IMG/VR virus record: IMGVR_UViG_3300046028_002299
Span: 1-29,917 of that record
Reading direction: 5' to 3' (one strand)
DNA from: a virus
DNA: 29,917 nt
Made by a program: the position numbers and the translations under genes
Shown here: positions 6,942-28,174 of the stretch, in pieces
Layout: every line of letters begins with the position of its first letter
Numbering within the stretch: position 1 is the stretch's first letter
The notes under the pieces: model-generated
Told to the model about the DNA's origin: nothing
The model's database searches: none
The model's input: the letters and a program-made list of their open reading frames with translations, nothing else

Positions 6942-8538
6942 ACTAGTTAAAACACATGAACCATGCTCTGATTGTGGGTCTAGTGATGCACTGGCGGTCT
7001 ACGATGATGGACACACTCACTGTTTTAGCTGTGGTATGACACGATTTAACAACGATGCAGGGGTAGGTATTACCTCACACAAACAAACGCAACCAAGAGG
7101 CTCTATGAAAGAATTAGAAGCATTAAACAGCATGGAATCAGTAGCAGTAGTGGAACGTGGTCTAACTAAACAGACTATGCACTACTATGGTGCAGGATCT
7201 GATGGTAACAAGTACTACTTCCCTTACTCTGATAAAGATAACAAGGTGGTGGCATGTAAGACACGAGGTGTTCAAGAGAAAACCTTTGGTGTTATCGGTG
7301 ACTGGAGGGATGCCCAGTTATTTGGACAGCAGTTGTTCAGTGCCGGTGGCAGAGCTATCACGATTACTGAAGGTGAGTTCGATGCACTAGCTGTGTTTCA
7401 GATGACAGGATCTAAGTACCCCGCAGTATCAATTCGTAACGGTGCACACTCAGCACTCAAGGATTGTCGCAATGCTTATGAGTACCTGAATTCTTTTGAT
7501 AAGATTGTGCTATGCTTTGACTCTGATGAACAAGGACAACAAGCAACGAACCAAGTAGCAGAGTTGTTTGGTAGCAAGGTAGCTATCTTCAAGCATAAGC
7601 CGGACATGAAGGATGCATGCGATTACCTAAGTGCAGGTAAGAGCAAGGAGTTTATTGATTCATGGTACAGTGCAGAGAAGTTCGTACCTGATGGTATCAT
7701 TGCAGGTTCAAGCTTATGGGATGAAGTCAACGCACCTGTAGAGAAGGCAGAAGTACAGTACCCTTACGAAGGTATCAACAGTTTGACATACGGTATTCGT
7801 AAAGGTGAATTGGTTACAGTCACTGCGGGATCAGGACTAGGTAAGTCACAGTTCTTGCGTGAGATTGTATGGCAGATTCTTAACAAGAGCACAGAGAATA
7901 TTGGACTGATGTTCTTAGAAGAATCAGTTAAGAAAACAGCTAAGTCTCTGATGAGTTTAGCAGTGAACAAGACATTACATTTACCTGATTGTGAGACTAA
8001 CGATGAAGAATTACGTGAAGCATTTGACAAGACAATGGGCACTGACCGTCTGTATTTGTTTGACCATTTTGGTAGTACTAGCATTGATAACATTATTAAT
8101 CGAGTACGCTATATGGCTAAGGGTTTAGACTGCAAGTACATCTTTGTTGACCACGTATCGATCATCGTATCGGCACAGGAATCAGGTGATGAACGTAAAG
8201 CAATTGATGAGATCATGACCAAGCTTCGCATGTTGGTGCAAGAGACTGGGATTAGTTTGTTTGTTGTCTCACACTTGAAGCGTCCATCGGACAAGGGACA
8301 CGAAGAAGGTGCAGTCACATCACTAGCACAGCTACGTGGATCAGGTTCAATTGCACAGCTAAGTGATATCGTGATTGGCTTAGAGCGTAACGGACAGCAT
8401 GAGGATATGAATGAACGTAACACTACTCATGTTCGTGTACTTAAGAATCGTTTCGCAGGGTTGACAGGTAAGGCATGTCGCTTACTTTACAATCGTGTGA
8501 CCGGACGTATGTCTGAGATACCGGAAGAAACACTATGA
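6919..8538 (+). CDS. Bifunctional DNA primase-helicase, T7 gp4-like
   Basis: Makes RNA primers and unwinds the fork as a hexamer. 539 residues, close to T7 gp4. The ATG at 6919 is preferred over 6904 because AAAGG lies seven bases before it. Order: N-terminal zinc ribbon CSDC (C16, C19) and CFSC (C35, C38); TOPRIM core with ITEGEFDA (E151) and CFDSDEQG (D201, D203); then a RecA/DnaB-type helicase with Walker A AGSGLGKS (303-310), LEES (333-336), Walker B YIFVDH (D411) and the SHLKRP loop (451-456), where the sensing histidine is H452. All motifs are intact, so primase and helicase should both be active. The stop overlaps the next ATG. Confidence 0.95.
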   Translation: MHNKVTSKLVKTHEPCSDCGSSDALAVYDDGHTHCFSCGMTRFNNDAGVGITSHKQTQPRGSMKELEALNSMESVAVVERGLTKQTMHYYGAGSDGNKYYFPYSDKDNKVVACKTRGVQEKTFGVIGDWRDAQLFGQQLFSAGGRAITITEGEFDALAVFQMTGSKYPAVSIRNGAHSALKDCRNAYEYLNSFDKIVLCFDSDEQGQQATNQVAELFGSKVAIFKHKPDMKDACDYLSAGKSKEFIDSWYSAEKFVPDGIIAGSSLWDEVNAPVEKAEVQYPYEGINSLTYGIRKGELVTVTAGSGLGKSQFLREIVWQILNKSTENIGLMFLEESVKKTAKSLMSLAVNKTLHLPDCETNDEELREAFDKTMGTDRLYLFDHFGSTSIDNIINRVRYMAKGLDCKYIFVDHVSIIVSAQESGDERKAIDEIMTKLRMLVQETGISLFVVSHLKRPSDKGHEEGAVTSLAQLRGSGSIAQLSDIVIGLERNGQHEDMNERNTTHVRVLKNRFAGLTGKACRLLYNRVTGRMSEIPEETL

Positions 8539-8777
8539 TGTATGGCTTTGTATTCATCTTCGCATTCATGGGTGGCTTTGCTTATGGTTCACTGAACCAC
8601 TACGTAGAGAACATGACTGAGTGTACAACTTATCGACAAGGGGATACAAGGTGGGTTGGATACAGAGCTATCAGTGATGACTATGATCGAAGATGTTTTT
8701 GGTTAGAGGATAGATTCCCTAACAGGGTTAGACAAGGAGTAGAAGTTAATGGAAAAGAATATTCAATTCGTAGATGA
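8535..8777 (+). CDS. Small membrane-anchored or exported protein, 80 aa
   Basis: Coupled to the helicase by ATGA. The N-terminus MMYGFVFIFAFMGGFAYG is a hydrophobic segment of about 18 residues, a signal anchor or uncleaved signal. The remainder is hydrophilic with two cysteines (C30, C54) that could form a disulfide in the periplasm. Unknown function. The end overlaps the next gene by about 30 bases. Confidence 0.68.
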   Translation: MMYGFVFIFAFMGGFAYGSLNHYVENMTECTTYRQGDTRWVGYRAISDDYDRRCFWLEDRFPNRVRQGVEVNGKEYSIRR

Positions 8778-9040: not shown

Positions 9041-9217
9041 ATGAAACATAGACCATGTGGTAACGGTAAAGGTGACACACCTAGACCTATTACCGATAGG
9101 GAACAATTCGATAGAAACTGGGATGATATCTTTAAAAAGTTACCGAAAGGGAATGTAGATGCTGAAGTGGACAGGAACAATCCTATGCCTGATCGGGATA
9201 GCACTAACAAGTCTTAA
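9041..9217 (+). CDS. Small phage protein with GKGDTPRP motif, 58 aa
   Basis: The start at 9041 is preferred over a GTG at 9014, which lies inside the previous gene. It reads MKHRPCGNGKGDTPRP and then REQFDRNWDDIFKK. A short G-x-G-x-x-PRP loop followed by a W/Y-D-x-IF helix recurs in many small phage proteins of unknown role. The last 59 bases overlap the next gene in another frame, so the C-terminal tail is probably not conserved. Confidence 0.75.
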   Translation: MKHRPCGNGKGDTPRPITDREQFDRNWDDIFKKLPKGNVDAEVDRNNPMPDRDSTNKS

Positions 9218-9368
9218 CATCTATCCTTTGAATCTGTGGTTCGGGTTCATTGGTTCAGGACTGTGGACTTATGCGGGATTACGACAGCGGGACTATGCAT
9301 TATTCATAGTAGAATTTGTAGCTGTCCTAATGTATTTAGGTGGACTAATTAAACATAGCATGGTATAA
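9159..9368 (+). CDS. Two-pass membrane protein, 69 aa
   Basis: AAAGGGAATGTAG precedes the ATG. Two or three hydrophobic stretches (about residues 4-18, 21-38 and 47-66; LCLIGIALTS, WFGFIGSGLW, ALFIVEFVAVLMYLGGL) around a short basic loop (GLRQRD). It resembles small membrane proteins encoded beside replication genes in several marine phages. Function unknown. The stop lies seven bases before the DNA polymerase ATG. Confidence 0.74.
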   Translation: MLKWTGTILCLIGIALTSLNIYPLNLWFGFIGSGLWTYAGLRQRDYALFIVEFVAVLMYLGGLIKHSMV

Positions 9369-17157: not shown

Positions 17158-17215
17158 ATAATCGGAATATAACCGACTAACTATGTAGTTTCATGAAATG
17201 TGTAGTATATTACAC
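17158..17215. terminator. Convergent region with weak hairpins
   Basis: The two gene blocks meet here. Short inverted repeats: TCGG/CCGA around 17162-17175, TTTCATGAAA (17189-17198) and GTGTAG-TATA-TTACAC (17200-17215), the last overlapping the endolysin stop. None has a clear U-run, so this is a weak or Rho-dependent terminator at best. Confidence 0.35.
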
Positions 17216-17653
17216 AAAAGGACGTGTACCTGTTTTATCAATAATTAGTGCTTGTTTTCTTGGGCTTGCTTTAGGATCATTAGTAACGCTAATGTGAGTC
17301 CAAGATCCAAACTCTTCAATGATTTGATCAAACGGTACACCCTTAACCTGACAAGCTAGTACAACTTCTCTCGGTGTCATCCCCGGCACTCTAATATCAG
17401 CAGCACATCCTACTCTGTGTTGACTCGTATCCTTAGATCCTACCGCATCATTAACAGCTTTGCTTCTGAATGCAGAGTTAATCATAATAGGCTGACCTAC
17501 TACAGCTCTAACAATCTCAAGCAATGCAGCAAGCCTACTTAGGTTATGAATCTCCTGATCATTAGGAGTATTGTCTAAACCTTTACGCTCTGCAATTTCT
17601 GATACAGTTAGTTCTTCTAGTGTGAAGTGAACTGATAGTGGAGTAGCTGTCAT
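17210..17653 (-). CDS. Endolysin, M15-family D-Ala-D-Ala peptidase
   Basis: 147 residues, the length of a single-domain M15 (M15_3-type) enzyme that cuts peptidoglycan peptide stems. The zinc site is visible: SQHRVGCAAD gives H79 and D86, and SWTHIS gives H120; E113 or E114 (EEFG) is the likely base. There is no signal sequence, so release needs a holin, and two holin-like genes sit directly upstream with one-base overlaps. Strong call. Confidence 0.92.
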   Translation of the reverse strand: MTATPLSVHFTLEELTVSEIAERKGLDNTPNDQEIHNLSRLAALLEIVRAVVGQPIMINSAFRSKAVNDAVGSKDTSQHRVGCAADIRVPGMTPREVVLACQVKGVPFDQIIEEFGSWTHISVTNDPKASPRKQALIIDKTGTRPFV

Positions 17654-18234
17654 TATTTCCTCATTAACATTGAACTTGCTATAGATAACATAACTTGTGG
17701 GCTTTCAGGTTGTTCTTTCCAACCAACTGTTATCTGACCAATAAACTTATTAACATCAGGCGGTACAGAGATACGACAAGTATAGTTAATACCTATTGAT
17801 TTGTACCATAGTCCTATTTCTGATTGTGCTGTTTTGTATTCTGAACAAGGTATCTCATTAGCCATTAGCTTAATGATATCGTTATTGTTGTTTATGTTTG
17901 ATGTAAATAAACCTACATCGTAGCCATCAAAGTCTTTATATCTCTTGTCAGGAAGGTAGGCTCTTTCAACAACACGAGTACCTAGTAAAGGATTGACTGA
18001 AAAGATAACAACTAAGTCAGCGTTTGTACCTTTAAAGATTACTTGTGCTGCATCATCGTAACGAGCTGCATTCATGGTTGGCAGTTGTTTTGATTTAGTG
18101 TAGGCATCAACCATCAATCCTTGGTTCTGCCAAACAAAGTAACCAATGAAGGTCAGTACTGCCATTATAACAATAGCAAATAACCTGAACGGACTACTTA
18201 CATACGCTAGTATTTGAGGTACTAGATCTTTCAT
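17653..18234 (-). CDS. T4 holin T-like membrane protein
   Basis: 193 residues with one transmembrane segment (about 17-35, LFAIVIMAVLTFIGYFVW) and a large C-terminal domain, the same layout as T4 holin T. Local resemblance to T, judged by eye from memory: AYTKSK after the membrane segment, NADLVVIFSVNP, YDVGLF, and INYTC followed by IGQITVGW. Cysteines C130 and C153 could form the periplasmic disulfide. It would form the lethal membrane holes that release the endolysin and, in T4, is the target of lysis inhibition. It overlaps its neighbours by one base (TAATG type). An alternative is an unrelated type II membrane protein. Confidence 0.62.
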   Translation of the reverse strand: MKDLVPQILAYVSSPFRLFAIVIMAVLTFIGYFVWQNQGLMVDAYTKSKQLPTMNAARYDDAAQVIFKGTNADLVVIFSVNPLLGTRVVERAYLPDKRYKDFDGYDVGLFTSNINNNNDIIKLMANEIPCSEYKTAQSEIGLWYKSIGINYTCRISVPPDVNKFIGQITVGWKEQPESPQVMLSIASSMLMRK

Positions 18235-18635
18235 TACTTTTTAGATTTCATATCGATAATCTTTTCGAGAGTACGACCACCAAAGTAGAAGGACATGATC
18301 AACATCCCCCACTGACCTAGCAATTGTACATATACTTCGTTAGCATTCATACCAAAGGCAGACATCATAGCAAAGATAAAGTAACCTACAAGGATAGCTA
18401 CCAATGTCATAGGTCTAATGTTCTTACTTAACCATGAATCACTAGACATGTCCGCTTCTAATCTCTTAGTTAACTCTACTTGCTCTGCAGTGTCAGCTTG
18501 AATAGAAGCTAGTTCGCCTGATTGCTGTAGCTCTAATAGCTTTAGTTTAGCTTGCTCTGCTTGTGCAGGATCAGGAAATACTTTATCAAGCACTTTAGAT
18601 CCGATACTAAGTATTGCGTCTAATGGTAATATCAT
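18234..18635 (-). CDS. Holin of the GTA 3TM type
   Basis: 133 residues. The N-terminus is amphipathic (PLDAILSIGSKVLDKVFPDP), then a charged helix (about 25-62, AEQAKLKLLELQQSGELASIQ), then SWLSKNIRPMTLVAILVGYF and a second hydrophobic stretch (WGMLIMSFYFGGRTLEK), ending in a basic tail. The S-W-x-x-x-x-I-R-P-M-T segment and FYFGGR ending are typical of the GTA holin family. A second holin beside the T-like protein. Its start overlaps the large virion protein stop. Confidence 0.8.
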   Translation of the reverse strand: MILPLDAILSIGSKVLDKVFPDPAQAEQAKLKLLELQQSGELASIQADTAEQVELTKRLEADMSSDSWLSKNIRPMTLVAILVGYFIFAMMSAFGMNANEVYVQLLGQWGMLIMSFYFGGRTLEKIIDMKSKK

Positions 18636-21600
18636 TCTTCTAATCCCTTCTTAAGTCTTGCTATTCTACGTGCTTCTTCTCTGAACTCAGGATCACGAGA
18701 CATCTCTGCATACATCATGTTAGTAGCTGATTTTCTACCTTGCTGCATCTGTTGCTCAAGTAAGAACTTCTGTCTAGCTTTAGGCAATGATTGGAAGTAA
18801 GGGTTGTTAACAGCTTGTTGAATCTTCATGGTTAACATGTTGCTTGATAACTCTTGATATCTTGATTGTTGCTCAGTAGTTAACTCAACACCTTTTAGTT
18901 TCTTAGAAGGCATTACATAGTCAATACCTAAGTCACTCACAAGCTTCTGCTCAGGAGTCTGCTCTGCACTACGGATAGGTACACCAGTGAATGCAGCAAT
19001 ACCTTGCATTGGATTCTCAGCAACACCACCGAATAGATTGTATCTCTCAGGTAGTTGTTCACGTTGACCCGGAATACGGTTAAGAACTGCTTCACCGAAT
19101 GTCTGAGCAATACGTTGATTAGGATCACTTGCTTTAGAGAACTGAGCTACTGCACCCGGCACTGCTAGTGAAGAGAATCCCTTAACGAAGGCAGAACCAT
19201 GACGTTCAGGATCATTGATAGCTTGTACCACACCTGCAAGACCTTGTAAGAAAGTCTTGTTAGCTAAGTTGTTAGCTAGTGCAGCAGTTACCTGAGAAGC
19301 AATCTCTCCTGCTTTTCTATCGTTAGGATTCTTAGCTACTGTATCCTGAAGAATCTTCATACTATCAGCTACAAAACCTAGTGTAGTTGCAAGAGGTTCA
19401 ATACGACCATAAGGAATCCATTGATTACCTACCTTGATAGCATACTCAGGAATACCTGCAGCTTGCATCGCAGCACGTTTACCCGGATCTTTAGGATATG
19501 AACCAGTGATCTCATTATTGAATACGTGTTGTGCTAGTGTAACTGCAGCAGCAGTACCCATAACAGTTCTTGCTGCTAGTTGTTCTTTAGTTAAGTAAGC
19601 ACTACGCTTTGCATTACCTTTAGCATCGTACTTAATACGTCCATCTGCACCACGAAGGATACGAGTAGGAGTCATGCCGGGGATTAAGTTAATACCGGGA
19701 ATGTAGCTCACACCTTCTTTAAGAATGTTGATTGGTGTTTTAACGAAAGGAATAATCAAAGCAGCAGCAGGGTTGTTAGACTTTAACTTCAATAAGTCGT
19801 TACCGAACTTACCTAAGTCAGCTTGGAAAGTATTTAACTTAGCATACTCTTTAGCTGCTTCAGCAATTTGCTCAAGCCTACGCTTACCTACTCCGGGAAT
19901 CTTAGCATCAGCTAACTGTACTGCCCAGTCCTTATCACTAACATCAATCTTCTTTAGTGCATTATAGATGTCACGTTCTTGTCCCTTGAATCTACCTGAG
20001 TAAGCTAGTTTGTGGAACTGGTCATACAACTCCATCTTACGGAAGTATGTCTTAAAGAACTCATCAATACCTACTGATGGACGAGTACCAACTGTACGGA
20101 TGACATTACCTAAAGCTTGTTCAGCCTTGCTTGCACCCTTCTGTCTACCAATAGCACCTGCTACGTCACCGATATTATCCAATGATTGACCTTCTAAGAA
20201 GCCAGTCTTACCAAAGAATAATGCTTCTCTGAATGCATCAGTTAGTGCTGATAATGTAGAACCTGCTCTACGGAAGTCTAAGAATCTAGAAGAACCCGGA
20301 GTAGCTGTTAGGATAGCTGCTTCCATACCGTTCAATAGCATCTTAACAGGAGGAGATAGTGCGTTAACTACCGCAGTCTGAATACCTGAAGTATAGATGT
20401 TTGTGATTGCTTCTGAGAACTTCTGACCTAGTGTAGGATCTTTAACTTGCTTCTTAAGTAACTTAGCTACAGCTTGTTCTGCATCGATAGAACCATCTGC
20501 ACTTGCTGACTTAAGTTTACGAACCATGTCAACCATGTCTACAGTAGCGTCAGTATCTAAACCTTTACCGCTGTTCTCTAGCATGTTCATGAATGACTTC
20601 ATGTTACCAAACAACTTAGTAGTTGCTTTGTCAGACAACACACGAGCAGCTTGTGATCTGTTGCCTAATACTTGACTAGCTACCAATGAGAACTGATTGA
20701 ATGAATCACCTACTAACTTAGCTGCATCTTTAGAAGATACACCTGAGCGAATTAGATCATCATAGAAAGTATCAATGTTTTGGAATGATAATAGTTCTTT
20801 CTCTAACCAAGGAACAATAGCTTGTTGGAATTGATTAGGAAGTACTAGACCGTCTCTGCCTAAGAAAGCATTAACTGCATTAGATGTTGGTACAGTGAAG
20901 TCTTGAGGAGCACGTAATGCTTGGATGTCGTTGAATCTAGTCTGCATTAAGTTAAGACCATCAGAGAACTTCTCGATGTTCCATTGCTTTAATGCACCAA
21001 TGTTACGTTCATAGAAAGGATTAGTCTGATCTAGTGCACCCTGAATCTTCCAAATAGGAAGCTTACCAAATTCTACTTCAGTGGTGTATCCTTTGATTGA
21101 ATTGAAGAAGTCAGACCAGTCACCTGATTGTGTACCTTTAGTGAATGCTGCTTCAGCTTCTTCTCTAGCTAGTGGATTAACAGAATCCATAGACATCTGA
21201 TCGAACAATCCTTTAAACTCTGCCTTTGCAGGAATAGAGTCAGCAGTATTGATATTAATATTATCAACAGCAGGAGTTGATTCTATCTTAGCAGTGTTCT
21301 CAGGGAATAAAGAATCAACAGTCTTAGGTTCATCAACCTTGATACCAGTATCTTCTTGAATAACTTTAGCTACTTCATCGTCAGTCTTAGCACCCTTAGA
21401 CTTAGCTTTCTCTACTAATTCTTGAGCAGCCTTACGACCAAACTTACCTGATACTGCACCTAGTACTGTACCTAGTGTACCACCAATAGCAGTACCGACA
21501 GCAGCATTAACTAAGCGACTATCTTCTGCTTCATAAGTAGGTTCTAATCCACCACCAATAGCACCTGCTACAGCACCTGCAGTAGCTGCACCTTTAACAC

Positions 21601-21976
21601 CTTTGAATAGTAGAGCACCCGGAACAAGAGTTGATGGATTAACTAAGCCACCTGCTAGTGTACCTAATACACCTGACACAGGATTCTCAGAAGCCATCTG
21701 TCTACGTAGAGACTCTTCAGCAGTATCTAATTCAGCTAATCCAGTTAGTTGACCCAAGCCTTTTATTTCAGAGCCTACTTCTTGTTTAGCAGATTGTAAG
21801 AAGGTTTCAAACGGAGTAGCATTAGTCTTGTTTAAATGTTCAATGATATCTTTGAACTTATATCCTTCAGCTACTGCACCTTGGATATTAAAACCTGACT
21901 GACCTGCTAAATAACCTGCTATCTCTTCGTCTGTGTAACCTTCTTTCTTTGCACCTAGTACATCAAAGAAAGCCAT
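18632..21976 (-). CDS. Large internal virion/ejection protein, T7 gp16 position
   Basis: 1114 residues, the largest gene here. The N-terminus (MAFFDVLGAKKEGYTDEE) is followed by a long Gly/Ala-rich hydrophobic region (about 98-185, with GVLGTLAGGL, AGAVAGAIGGG and IGGTLGTVLGAVSG) able to insert into or cross membranes, then a long helical body. In T7 this position encodes gp16, which is ejected into the host and helps draw DNA in. I see no lytic transglycosylase motif, so unlike T7 gp16 it may lack cell-wall activity. Just downstream of gp14- and gp15-position genes and before lysis. Identity by position and form, not by sequence match. Confidence 0.72.
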   Translation of the reverse strand: MAFFDVLGAKKEGYTDEEIAGYLAGQSGFNIQGAVAEGYKFKDIIEHLNKTNATPFETFLQSAKQEVGSEIKGLGQLTGLAELDTAEESLRRQMASENPVSGVLGTLAGGLVNPSTLVPGALLFKGVKGAATAGAVAGAIGGGLEPTYEAEDSRLVNAAVGTAIGGTLGTVLGAVSGKFGRKAAQELVEKAKSKGAKTDDEVAKVIQEDTGIKVDEPKTVDSLFPENTAKIESTPAVDNININTADSIPAKAEFKGLFDQMSMDSVNPLAREEAEAAFTKGTQSGDWSDFFNSIKGYTTEVEFGKLPIWKIQGALDQTNPFYERNIGALKQWNIEKFSDGLNLMQTRFNDIQALRAPQDFTVPTSNAVNAFLGRDGLVLPNQFQQAIVPWLEKELLSFQNIDTFYDDLIRSGVSSKDAAKLVGDSFNQFSLVASQVLGNRSQAARVLSDKATTKLFGNMKSFMNMLENSGKGLDTDATVDMVDMVRKLKSASADGSIDAEQAVAKLLKKQVKDPTLGQKFSEAITNIYTSGIQTAVVNALSPPVKMLLNGMEAAILTATPGSSRFLDFRRAGSTLSALTDAFREALFFGKTGFLEGQSLDNIGDVAGAIGRQKGASKAEQALGNVIRTVGTRPSVGIDEFFKTYFRKMELYDQFHKLAYSGRFKGQERDIYNALKKIDVSDKDWAVQLADAKIPGVGKRRLEQIAEAAKEYAKLNTFQADLGKFGNDLLKLKSNNPAAALIIPFVKTPINILKEGVSYIPGINLIPGMTPTRILRGADGRIKYDAKGNAKRSAYLTKEQLAARTVMGTAAAVTLAQHVFNNEITGSYPKDPGKRAAMQAAGIPEYAIKVGNQWIPYGRIEPLATTLGFVADSMKILQDTVAKNPNDRKAGEIASQVTAALANNLANKTFLQGLAGVVQAINDPERHGSAFVKGFSSLAVPGAVAQFSKASDPNQRIAQTFGEAVLNRIPGQREQLPERYNLFGGVAENPMQGIAAFTGVPIRSAEQTPEQKLVSDLGIDYVMPSKKLKGVELTTEQQSRYQELSSNMLTMKIQQAVNNPYFQSLPKARQKFLLEQQMQQGRKSATNMMYAEMSRDPEFREEARRIARLKKGLEE

Positions 21977-27644: not shown

Positions 27645-27989
27645 TTAAGAAACATGCTGATAAGATGTGGTTTGTAATATTTCCATAGTGAAAATACAAC
27701 TCATAGTTGCACCTGCTTCTGGTGTGGCTGTAACATAATCAAACTCATCTAGAACCATGCGACCTTGGTTAAACTGAAGAGCTTCTCCAGCACCGAGTGA
27801 CTTAGCTCCTACAATAGGAACAGTAGCAGTAGTACTAGCATCATGCACTGCAGCAGAAATACCTTTAGTTGACCCACCGCTGTTTGCTAAAAATAATAAT
27901 GTAGCTATAGCTTTACATCCTTTAGGTACTGTATAAATAGTATTGGATGAACCTGCAGTAAGGTTTTTAAAGATTGTTAGTTCTCTCAT
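27645..27989 (-). CDS. Small beta-rich virion-region protein, 114 aa
   Basis: Begins MRELTIFKNLTAGSSNTIYTVPKG. Strand-rich with Gly and Thr, and a YTVPKG segment seen in phage proteins that decorate heads or tails. Overlaps the next upstream gene (27986) by ATGA. Probably a decoration or tail accessory protein; position and composition only. Confidence 0.66.
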   Translation of the reverse strand: MRELTIFKNLTAGSSNTIYTVPKGCKAIATLLFLANSGGSTKGISAAVHDASTTATVPIVGAKSLGAGEALQFNQGRMVLDEFDYVTATPEAGATMSCIFTMEILQTTSYQHVS

Positions 27990-28174
27990 TTAAAATGTCC
28001 GTTTCCAGCTAACCAAGTAACAAGGGCAAGAACCCCAATACCGATAATATAGAATGTCTTTTTAACAACACCTCTGCCGACTGAAATATATACATTGTCG
28101 ATAACTCTTTCAGTTACTCGCTCTACAATGACTTCAATCTGCTCATCCGTTAAAGGTAAGTTTTTATCGTTCAT
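27986..28174 (-). CDS. Small membrane protein, 62 aa
   Basis: The N-terminal half is acidic helix (PLTDEQIEVIVERVTERVID); residues about 40-56 are one membrane span (FYIIGIGVLALVTWLAG) with a basic flank. Single-pass protein in the virion region; could be an antiholin-like or minor lysis factor, unproven. Coupled to the 27645-27989 gene. Confidence 0.66.
   Translation of the reverse strand: MNDKNLPLTDEQIEVIVERVTERVIDNVYISVGRGVVKKTFYIIGIGVLALVTWLAGNGHFK

Follow-up and report, generated by a model that had tools for sequence, protein, structure and literature searches.

Most known T-type holins come from T4-like and T5-like phages, and the working of lysis inhibition is understood for only a few phages (T4, ICP1 and N4).

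In phage T4, lysis is delayed when the T protein is blocked. T has an N-terminal amphipathic segment that is essential (PMC12162936), and its periplasmic disulfide is given a key role in the passage of the same paper that cites Moussa 2012. The T residues at the interface with the RI antiholin are R104, Y110 and F111, of which Y110 and F111 also matter for lysis (PMC11413866). TeaA of Vibrio phage ICP1, described as a remote relative of the GTA_holin_3TM family, has been tested by experiment: it is a holin through which lysis inhibition is exerted, it can act as a holin by itself, and its antiholin is a separate protein (PMC7182436). Two holin-like proteins, LysF1a and LysF1b, one of which modulates the other, are described in F1-cluster mycobacteriophages (PMC13056207). 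Our search of the literature found nothing that bears directly on a podovirus holin resembling T or on a holin with a GAF domain, and no measured function for any protein of phrog_31287, the family to which the protein described here belongs.

The lysis cassette

The window is the whole stretch of viral DNA analysed here, a linear contig of 29.9 kb (29,917 nucleotides; IMG/VR record IMGVR_UViG_3300046028_002299), and it is assigned to a podovirus from its gene content (terminase, DNA polymerase and internal virion protein), not from morphology. A search of host genomes gave a single match, partial and at a contig edge, to a Verrucomicrobiota MAG contig, which does not suffice to identify a host. 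The preliminary description had proposed a GTA-type protein and a single-span protein before an M15 endolysin, with overlaps of about one base, and this three-gene cassette is confirmed at 17210-18635 on the minus strand, with the genes in the order GTA_holin_3TM protein, 193-residue bitopic protein and M15 endolysin (Table 1). Stop and start codons overlap by one base in TAATG at both inner junctions, and the start of the GTA-type gene overlaps by 4 bases the end of the preceding internal virion protein gene. The 133-residue protein scores 49.8 bits with GTA_holin_3TM (PF11351; curated cut-off 24.8) and the 147-residue endolysin scores 74.6 bits with Peptidase_M15_3 (PF08291; curated cut-off 23.2). 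The proposal of a second holin family is also supported: the PF11351 protein adjoins a T-related bitopic protein that has a predicted periplasmic domain.

Table 1. Features of the window, with coordinates, strand and supporting matches
Feature	Coordinates	Strand	Evidence
GTA_holin_3TM protein (PF11351, phrog_3427), 133 aa, putative holin	18234..18635	-	Pfam E 6e-13, PHROG holin E 4e-24
T-related bitopic protein (phrog_31287), 193 aa	17653..18234	-	PHROG T-family profile E 1e-3; hhalign 94-96% to T family; AlphaFold2 pLDDT 87
M15 peptidase endolysin, 147 aa	17210..17653	-	PF08291 E 8e-21, phrog_894 endolysin E 2e-38
Internal virion protein gene, directly upstream of the cassette	18632..21976	-	phrog_6651 E 6e-37
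80-aa protein, early region, N-terminal hydrophobic stretch, two cysteines	8535..8777	+	no Pfam match; weak PHROG match of unknown function
69-aa protein, early region, two predicted spans	9159..9368	+	DUF6552 (PF20189, E 1e-9)
62-aa protein, coiled-coil-like N-terminus, C-terminal span	27986..28174	-	
Tail-fibre C-terminal domain, right contig end	29025..29798	-	many PHROG tail fibre matches

The endolysin is not one of the window ORFs for which a hydrophobic span was found, and it is probably a soluble enzyme that depends on a holin. No obvious ribosome-binding site accompanies the start of the 193-residue gene, which would fit coupled translation. That this is no chance frame is shown by the relatives encoded in more than 500 viral-contig stretches and by the recurring gene neighbourhood. 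A search of the window gave no ORF of the lipoprotein type and, in agreement with the preliminary description, no spanin pair is recognised there; a spanin could lie outside this linear contig, which may be incomplete.

Relationship of the 193-residue protein to T

The 193-residue protein has a short amphipathic N-terminus, one predicted span at about residues 16-34 and a GAF-like domain at residues 55-193, and its membrane topology, including the periplasmic side, is taken from hydropathy prediction and analogy with T. It matches phrog_31287, a PHROGs family without assigned function, over residues 3-179 (E 6.8e-21). The invariant residues of this family are P15, L18, R87, C130, C153, P158, G166 and P176.

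The likeness to T4 T claimed in the preliminary description stands as a resemblance by profile comparison and fold, and the protein is not T itself. The GTA holin profile matches its protein firmly (Table 1), and the outcome for T is different: the Pfam T family PF11031 has no match in the 193-residue protein at E up to 1, nor in the records of its relatives, with the T4 positive control found, while phrog_860, the PHROG T profile, matches residues 4-82 weakly (E 9.7e-4) and T4 T itself with E 1.6e-107. The alignment of the 193-residue family was compared by hhalign with an alignment of the T family, which ranges over holins of T4-like, T5-like and Ceto phages, and gave a probability of 94.1% over 189 columns, and of 95.6% over 167 columns with 61 environmental members added. 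The score of the real pair is 54-60, against at most 18 for shuffles of the T columns and their reversal and at most 21.5 for unrelated proteins of the same cassettes. Shuffling confined to the periplasmic columns of T still leaves a score of 37-41 (37 of 54 in one comparison), which shows that much of the profile score comes from the membrane part; taken by itself, the periplasmic part reaches 29.2 and its 12 shuffles no more than 21.6. Six distant members alone (Edno5, GF-2, IKEMa6-1, S13, Ci1 and ctah5458) reach a probability of 13% to T and of 99.9% to the environmental members.

Identity to T is about 14-25% in the aligned parts. The amphipathic moment of the N-terminus is 0.47-0.58 in family members and 0.60 in T4 T, with the best segment chosen for each sequence, a likeness that is only suggestive. 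Three tests, drawn from profiles and fold, link the 193-residue protein to T as a distant relative that stands outside the Pfam T family.

Predicted fold of the periplasmic domain

The AlphaFold2 model, built with 61 sequences, has a mean pLDDT of 87 and replaces an earlier one from 18 sequences, with a pLDDT of only 64. Its periplasmic domain is predicted to be GAF-like, a fold shared with T. Structure prediction, which the preliminary description had proposed as a check, gave a T-like periplasmic fold: the best Foldseek match in the PDB is the periplasmic domain of T4 T (6PXE, E 2.6e-5), with further T chains and GAF domains close behind. By VIA-align, the match to 6px4_T (Z 12.9, 127 residues, rmsd 3.1) is tied with that to a Geobacter GAF domain (Z 13.1). 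GAF domains of bacterial sensors score as high as T. T is thus not distinguished from them by fold, and since the fold is common to T and others the kinship rests on the profile comparison. In a viral structure library family members rank at the top, and GAF-like phage proteins and annotated T holins come next.

Members of the family in isolated phages

In phages Edno5, GF-2 and IKEMa6-1 the T-related gene is followed by a soluble lysozyme gene and an Rz-type gene; an Rz1-like lipoprotein ORF that overlaps Rz is seen in Edno5 and IKEMa6-1, and the Rz of GF-2 was recognised by PHROG. PF11351 has no match in these phages (0/3), phrog_1544 has none in the two of them that were searched, and no further non-spanin membrane protein is seen beside the T-related one in their lysis operon. 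The other Edno5 proteins with strong hydrophobic spans all lie outside the operon. The phrog_31287 protein of these three phages stands where a holin is expected, and this is the strongest functional hint. Phages S13 and Ci1, which are Straboviridae and relatives of T4, have a phrog_31287 protein and no PF11031 T, and the gene does not adjoin a recognised endolysin in either.

Environmental cassettes

Relatives of the 193-residue protein are encoded in 519 viral-contig stretches found by an alignment scan. A second membrane protein adjoins the T-related gene, before or after it, in 65 of the 73 cassettes with enough flank, a count that does not represent independent events because many cassettes are close relatives and were drawn from the best-scoring matches. 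The partner is of the GTA type in 43, of the TeaA type (phrog_1544) in 19 and phrog_6637 in 3, as labelled by BLAST to seed sequences, several of which were checked against Pfam and PHROGs. The endolysins of the paired cassettes are M15, GH19, GH108 or T4-lysozyme-like, the GH19 and GH108 names coming from reading the sequences and not from profile searches. The two-protein arrangement is therefore conserved, and with unrelated endolysin classes. Six of the 73 cassettes have Rz/Rz1 and GH19 and no GTA, TeaA or phrog_6637 partner, and the remaining two loci lie outside any recognised lysis cassette. Judged from sequences and models, phrog_31287 would represent a new, widespread branch of T-type holins that is paired with a second holin type.

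Some further features of these loci can be described. Among the fetched cassettes, Rz/Rz1 occurs only where the GTA/TeaA-type partner is absent (L018, L022, L024 and L025), and these are maybe one lineage. At L039:3721-5597 and L040:3745-5600 the gene just before the T-related one is dicarboxylate-symporter-like and no recognised endolysin adjoins; in L039 a substrate-binding-protein-like gene also precedes the T-related gene. Many cassettes encode, upstream of the T-related gene, a protein of 148-192 residues with a C-terminal span, such as that at L108:4519-4965 (phrog_32327 in L108). Small proteins built like the 62-residue protein of the window (Table 1) precede the T-related gene in many relatives.

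Lysis inhibition

The cysteines C175 and C207 of T are invariant in the T-family alignment. C153 of the 193-residue protein aligns with C175, and C207 has no counterpart; C130, the second invariant cysteine of phrog_31287, is different from the T pair, and a C130-C153 disulfide is a guess. The RI contacts R104, Y110 and F111 are not kept in the alignment of the 193-residue family, which has its invariant R87 at about this place. The RI antiholin (PF24205) was found in the T4-like control and in none of the 19 T-related records (the window and 18 others, several of them possibly fragments). With no RI found, different RI contacts and no partner for the aligned cysteine, lysis inhibition of the T4 type, which the preliminary description had inferred from the likeness to T, is not indicated. 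The 80-residue protein of the early region (Table 1), which looks exported, was considered as an analogue of RI and is left as a guess.

A link to lysis inhibition can be argued equally, by analogy, from the GTA-type holin via TeaA. The teaA gene was taken as ICP1 ORF137, from the numbering in its description and from its match, and its profile family is phrog_1544, whose proteins stand in the GTA position next to the T-related gene of relatives. The window has no match to phrog_1544, and its 133-residue protein, which belongs to phrog_3427, compares with the TeaA profile with a probability of 91% over 20 columns only. ArrA of ICP1 was considered as a relative of the T-related protein and rejected, as neither candidate ORF scores above noise; one of the two was found in none of the T-related records examined.

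Two holins or one holin with a regulator

The cassette probably encodes two holins of different types, the distant T-type protein of 193 residues and the GTA_holin_3TM protein, together with a soluble M15 endolysin. The T-type holin would have a cytoplasmic amphipathic helix, one span and a periplasmic GAF-like domain, would most likely accumulate in the inner membrane and oligomerise, and once triggered may open holes large enough for the release of the endolysin. The GTA-type protein would be a second hole-former or a co-holin from the same message, and the TAATG overlaps point to translational coupling and to products made in a fixed ratio. The periplasmic domain may help to set the trigger time. 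GTA-type and T-related genes each occur without the other, which favours two holins over a holin and an antiholin.

It is possible, if doubtful, that the GTA-type protein is the sole holin and that its timing is set by the T-related protein, a periplasmic regulator anchored in the membrane that would be an antiholin or trigger sensor. The pair is conserved in 65 of the 73 cassettes, the GAF domain is a common sensor fold that matches as well as T, GTA-type and M15 cassettes exist where no T-related gene adjoins, and the holin TeaA has an antiholin that is a separate protein (PMC7182436). Against such a regulator, the T-related gene is found where no GTA/TeaA-type gene is, in Edno5, GF-2, IKEMa6-1 and the Rz/GH19 group; the ArrA candidates, which are membrane genes neighbouring teaA, are unrelated to it; and its N-terminus and span resemble T too, not the periplasmic part only.

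The converse, a T-related true holin delayed by a GTA-type antiholin or accessory protein, is judged unlikely. It would agree with the Edno5-type phages, where the T-related gene is alone in the holin position, and with the modulation of one holin-like protein by another in the F1-cluster mycobacteriophages (PMC13056207), but TeaA, described as a relative of the GTA family, can act as a holin unaided (PMC7182436), and some loci have a GTA-type protein as their annotated holin and no T-related gene nearby. Mere convergence, by which an unrelated bitopic protein with a GAF domain came to look like T, is very unlikely: GAF domains do match the structure as well as T, PF11031 has no match, and the disulfide partner and RI contacts differ, but the profile score of 54-60 over 167-189 columns compares with at most 21.5 in controls that lack the membrane segment of T, C153 takes the place of C175 of T in the alignment, T is the top Foldseek match, and the genes lie in lysis cassettes throughout, except for two loci.

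A more ambitious proposal builds on the two-holin reading and is quite unlikely as it stands: the T-related and TeaA/GTA-type holins would jointly decide the time of lysis, as a widespread dual trigger with a periplasmic GAF-like sensor that possibly senses a signal directly, with no RI. With a T-related family common in small environmental phages, T-type holins would span a far broader set of phages, and the relation to T would give phrog_31287 a likely function. This family regularly adjoins another holin type that is linked to lysis inhibition, and the pairing makes it a directly testable question why a phage keeps two holins.

Comparison with known systems

T4 T (PF11031, phrog_860; 6PXE, 6PX4, 6PSK) resembles the 193-residue protein in its length of about 200 residues, its amphipathic cytoplasmic N-terminus, single span and periplasmic GAF-like domain, one aligned cysteine and its role in lysis, which for the 193-residue protein is assigned by position. 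Unlike T4 T, the protein of the window has no PF11031 match, no C207 and a conserved C130, the RI contacts are not kept, no RI gene was found, and a second holin family stands alongside. The T-family holins of T5-like and Ceto-like phages also directly precede an endolysin, which in the T5-like case is of the M15 type (L-alanyl-D-glutamate peptidase), but they keep both T cysteines, are found by tblastn with T4 T and have no GTA-type gene adjoining, unlike the cassette of the window.

In ICP1, unlike the window, no T-related gene adjoins teaA. LysF1a and LysF1b are like the window pair in being two membrane proteins of different topology with a joint role in lysis (PMC13056207); they differ in their Gram-positive host and other topology and, going by their description, are unrelated. 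The Edwardsiella phages Edno5 and GF-2, Vibrio phage IKEMa6-1 and Cronobacter phage S13 differ from the window in that a GTA-type partner was not found and, in the first three, in their lysozyme and Rz-type spanin genes, but their proteins belong to the same family and share the invariant residues with the protein of the window.
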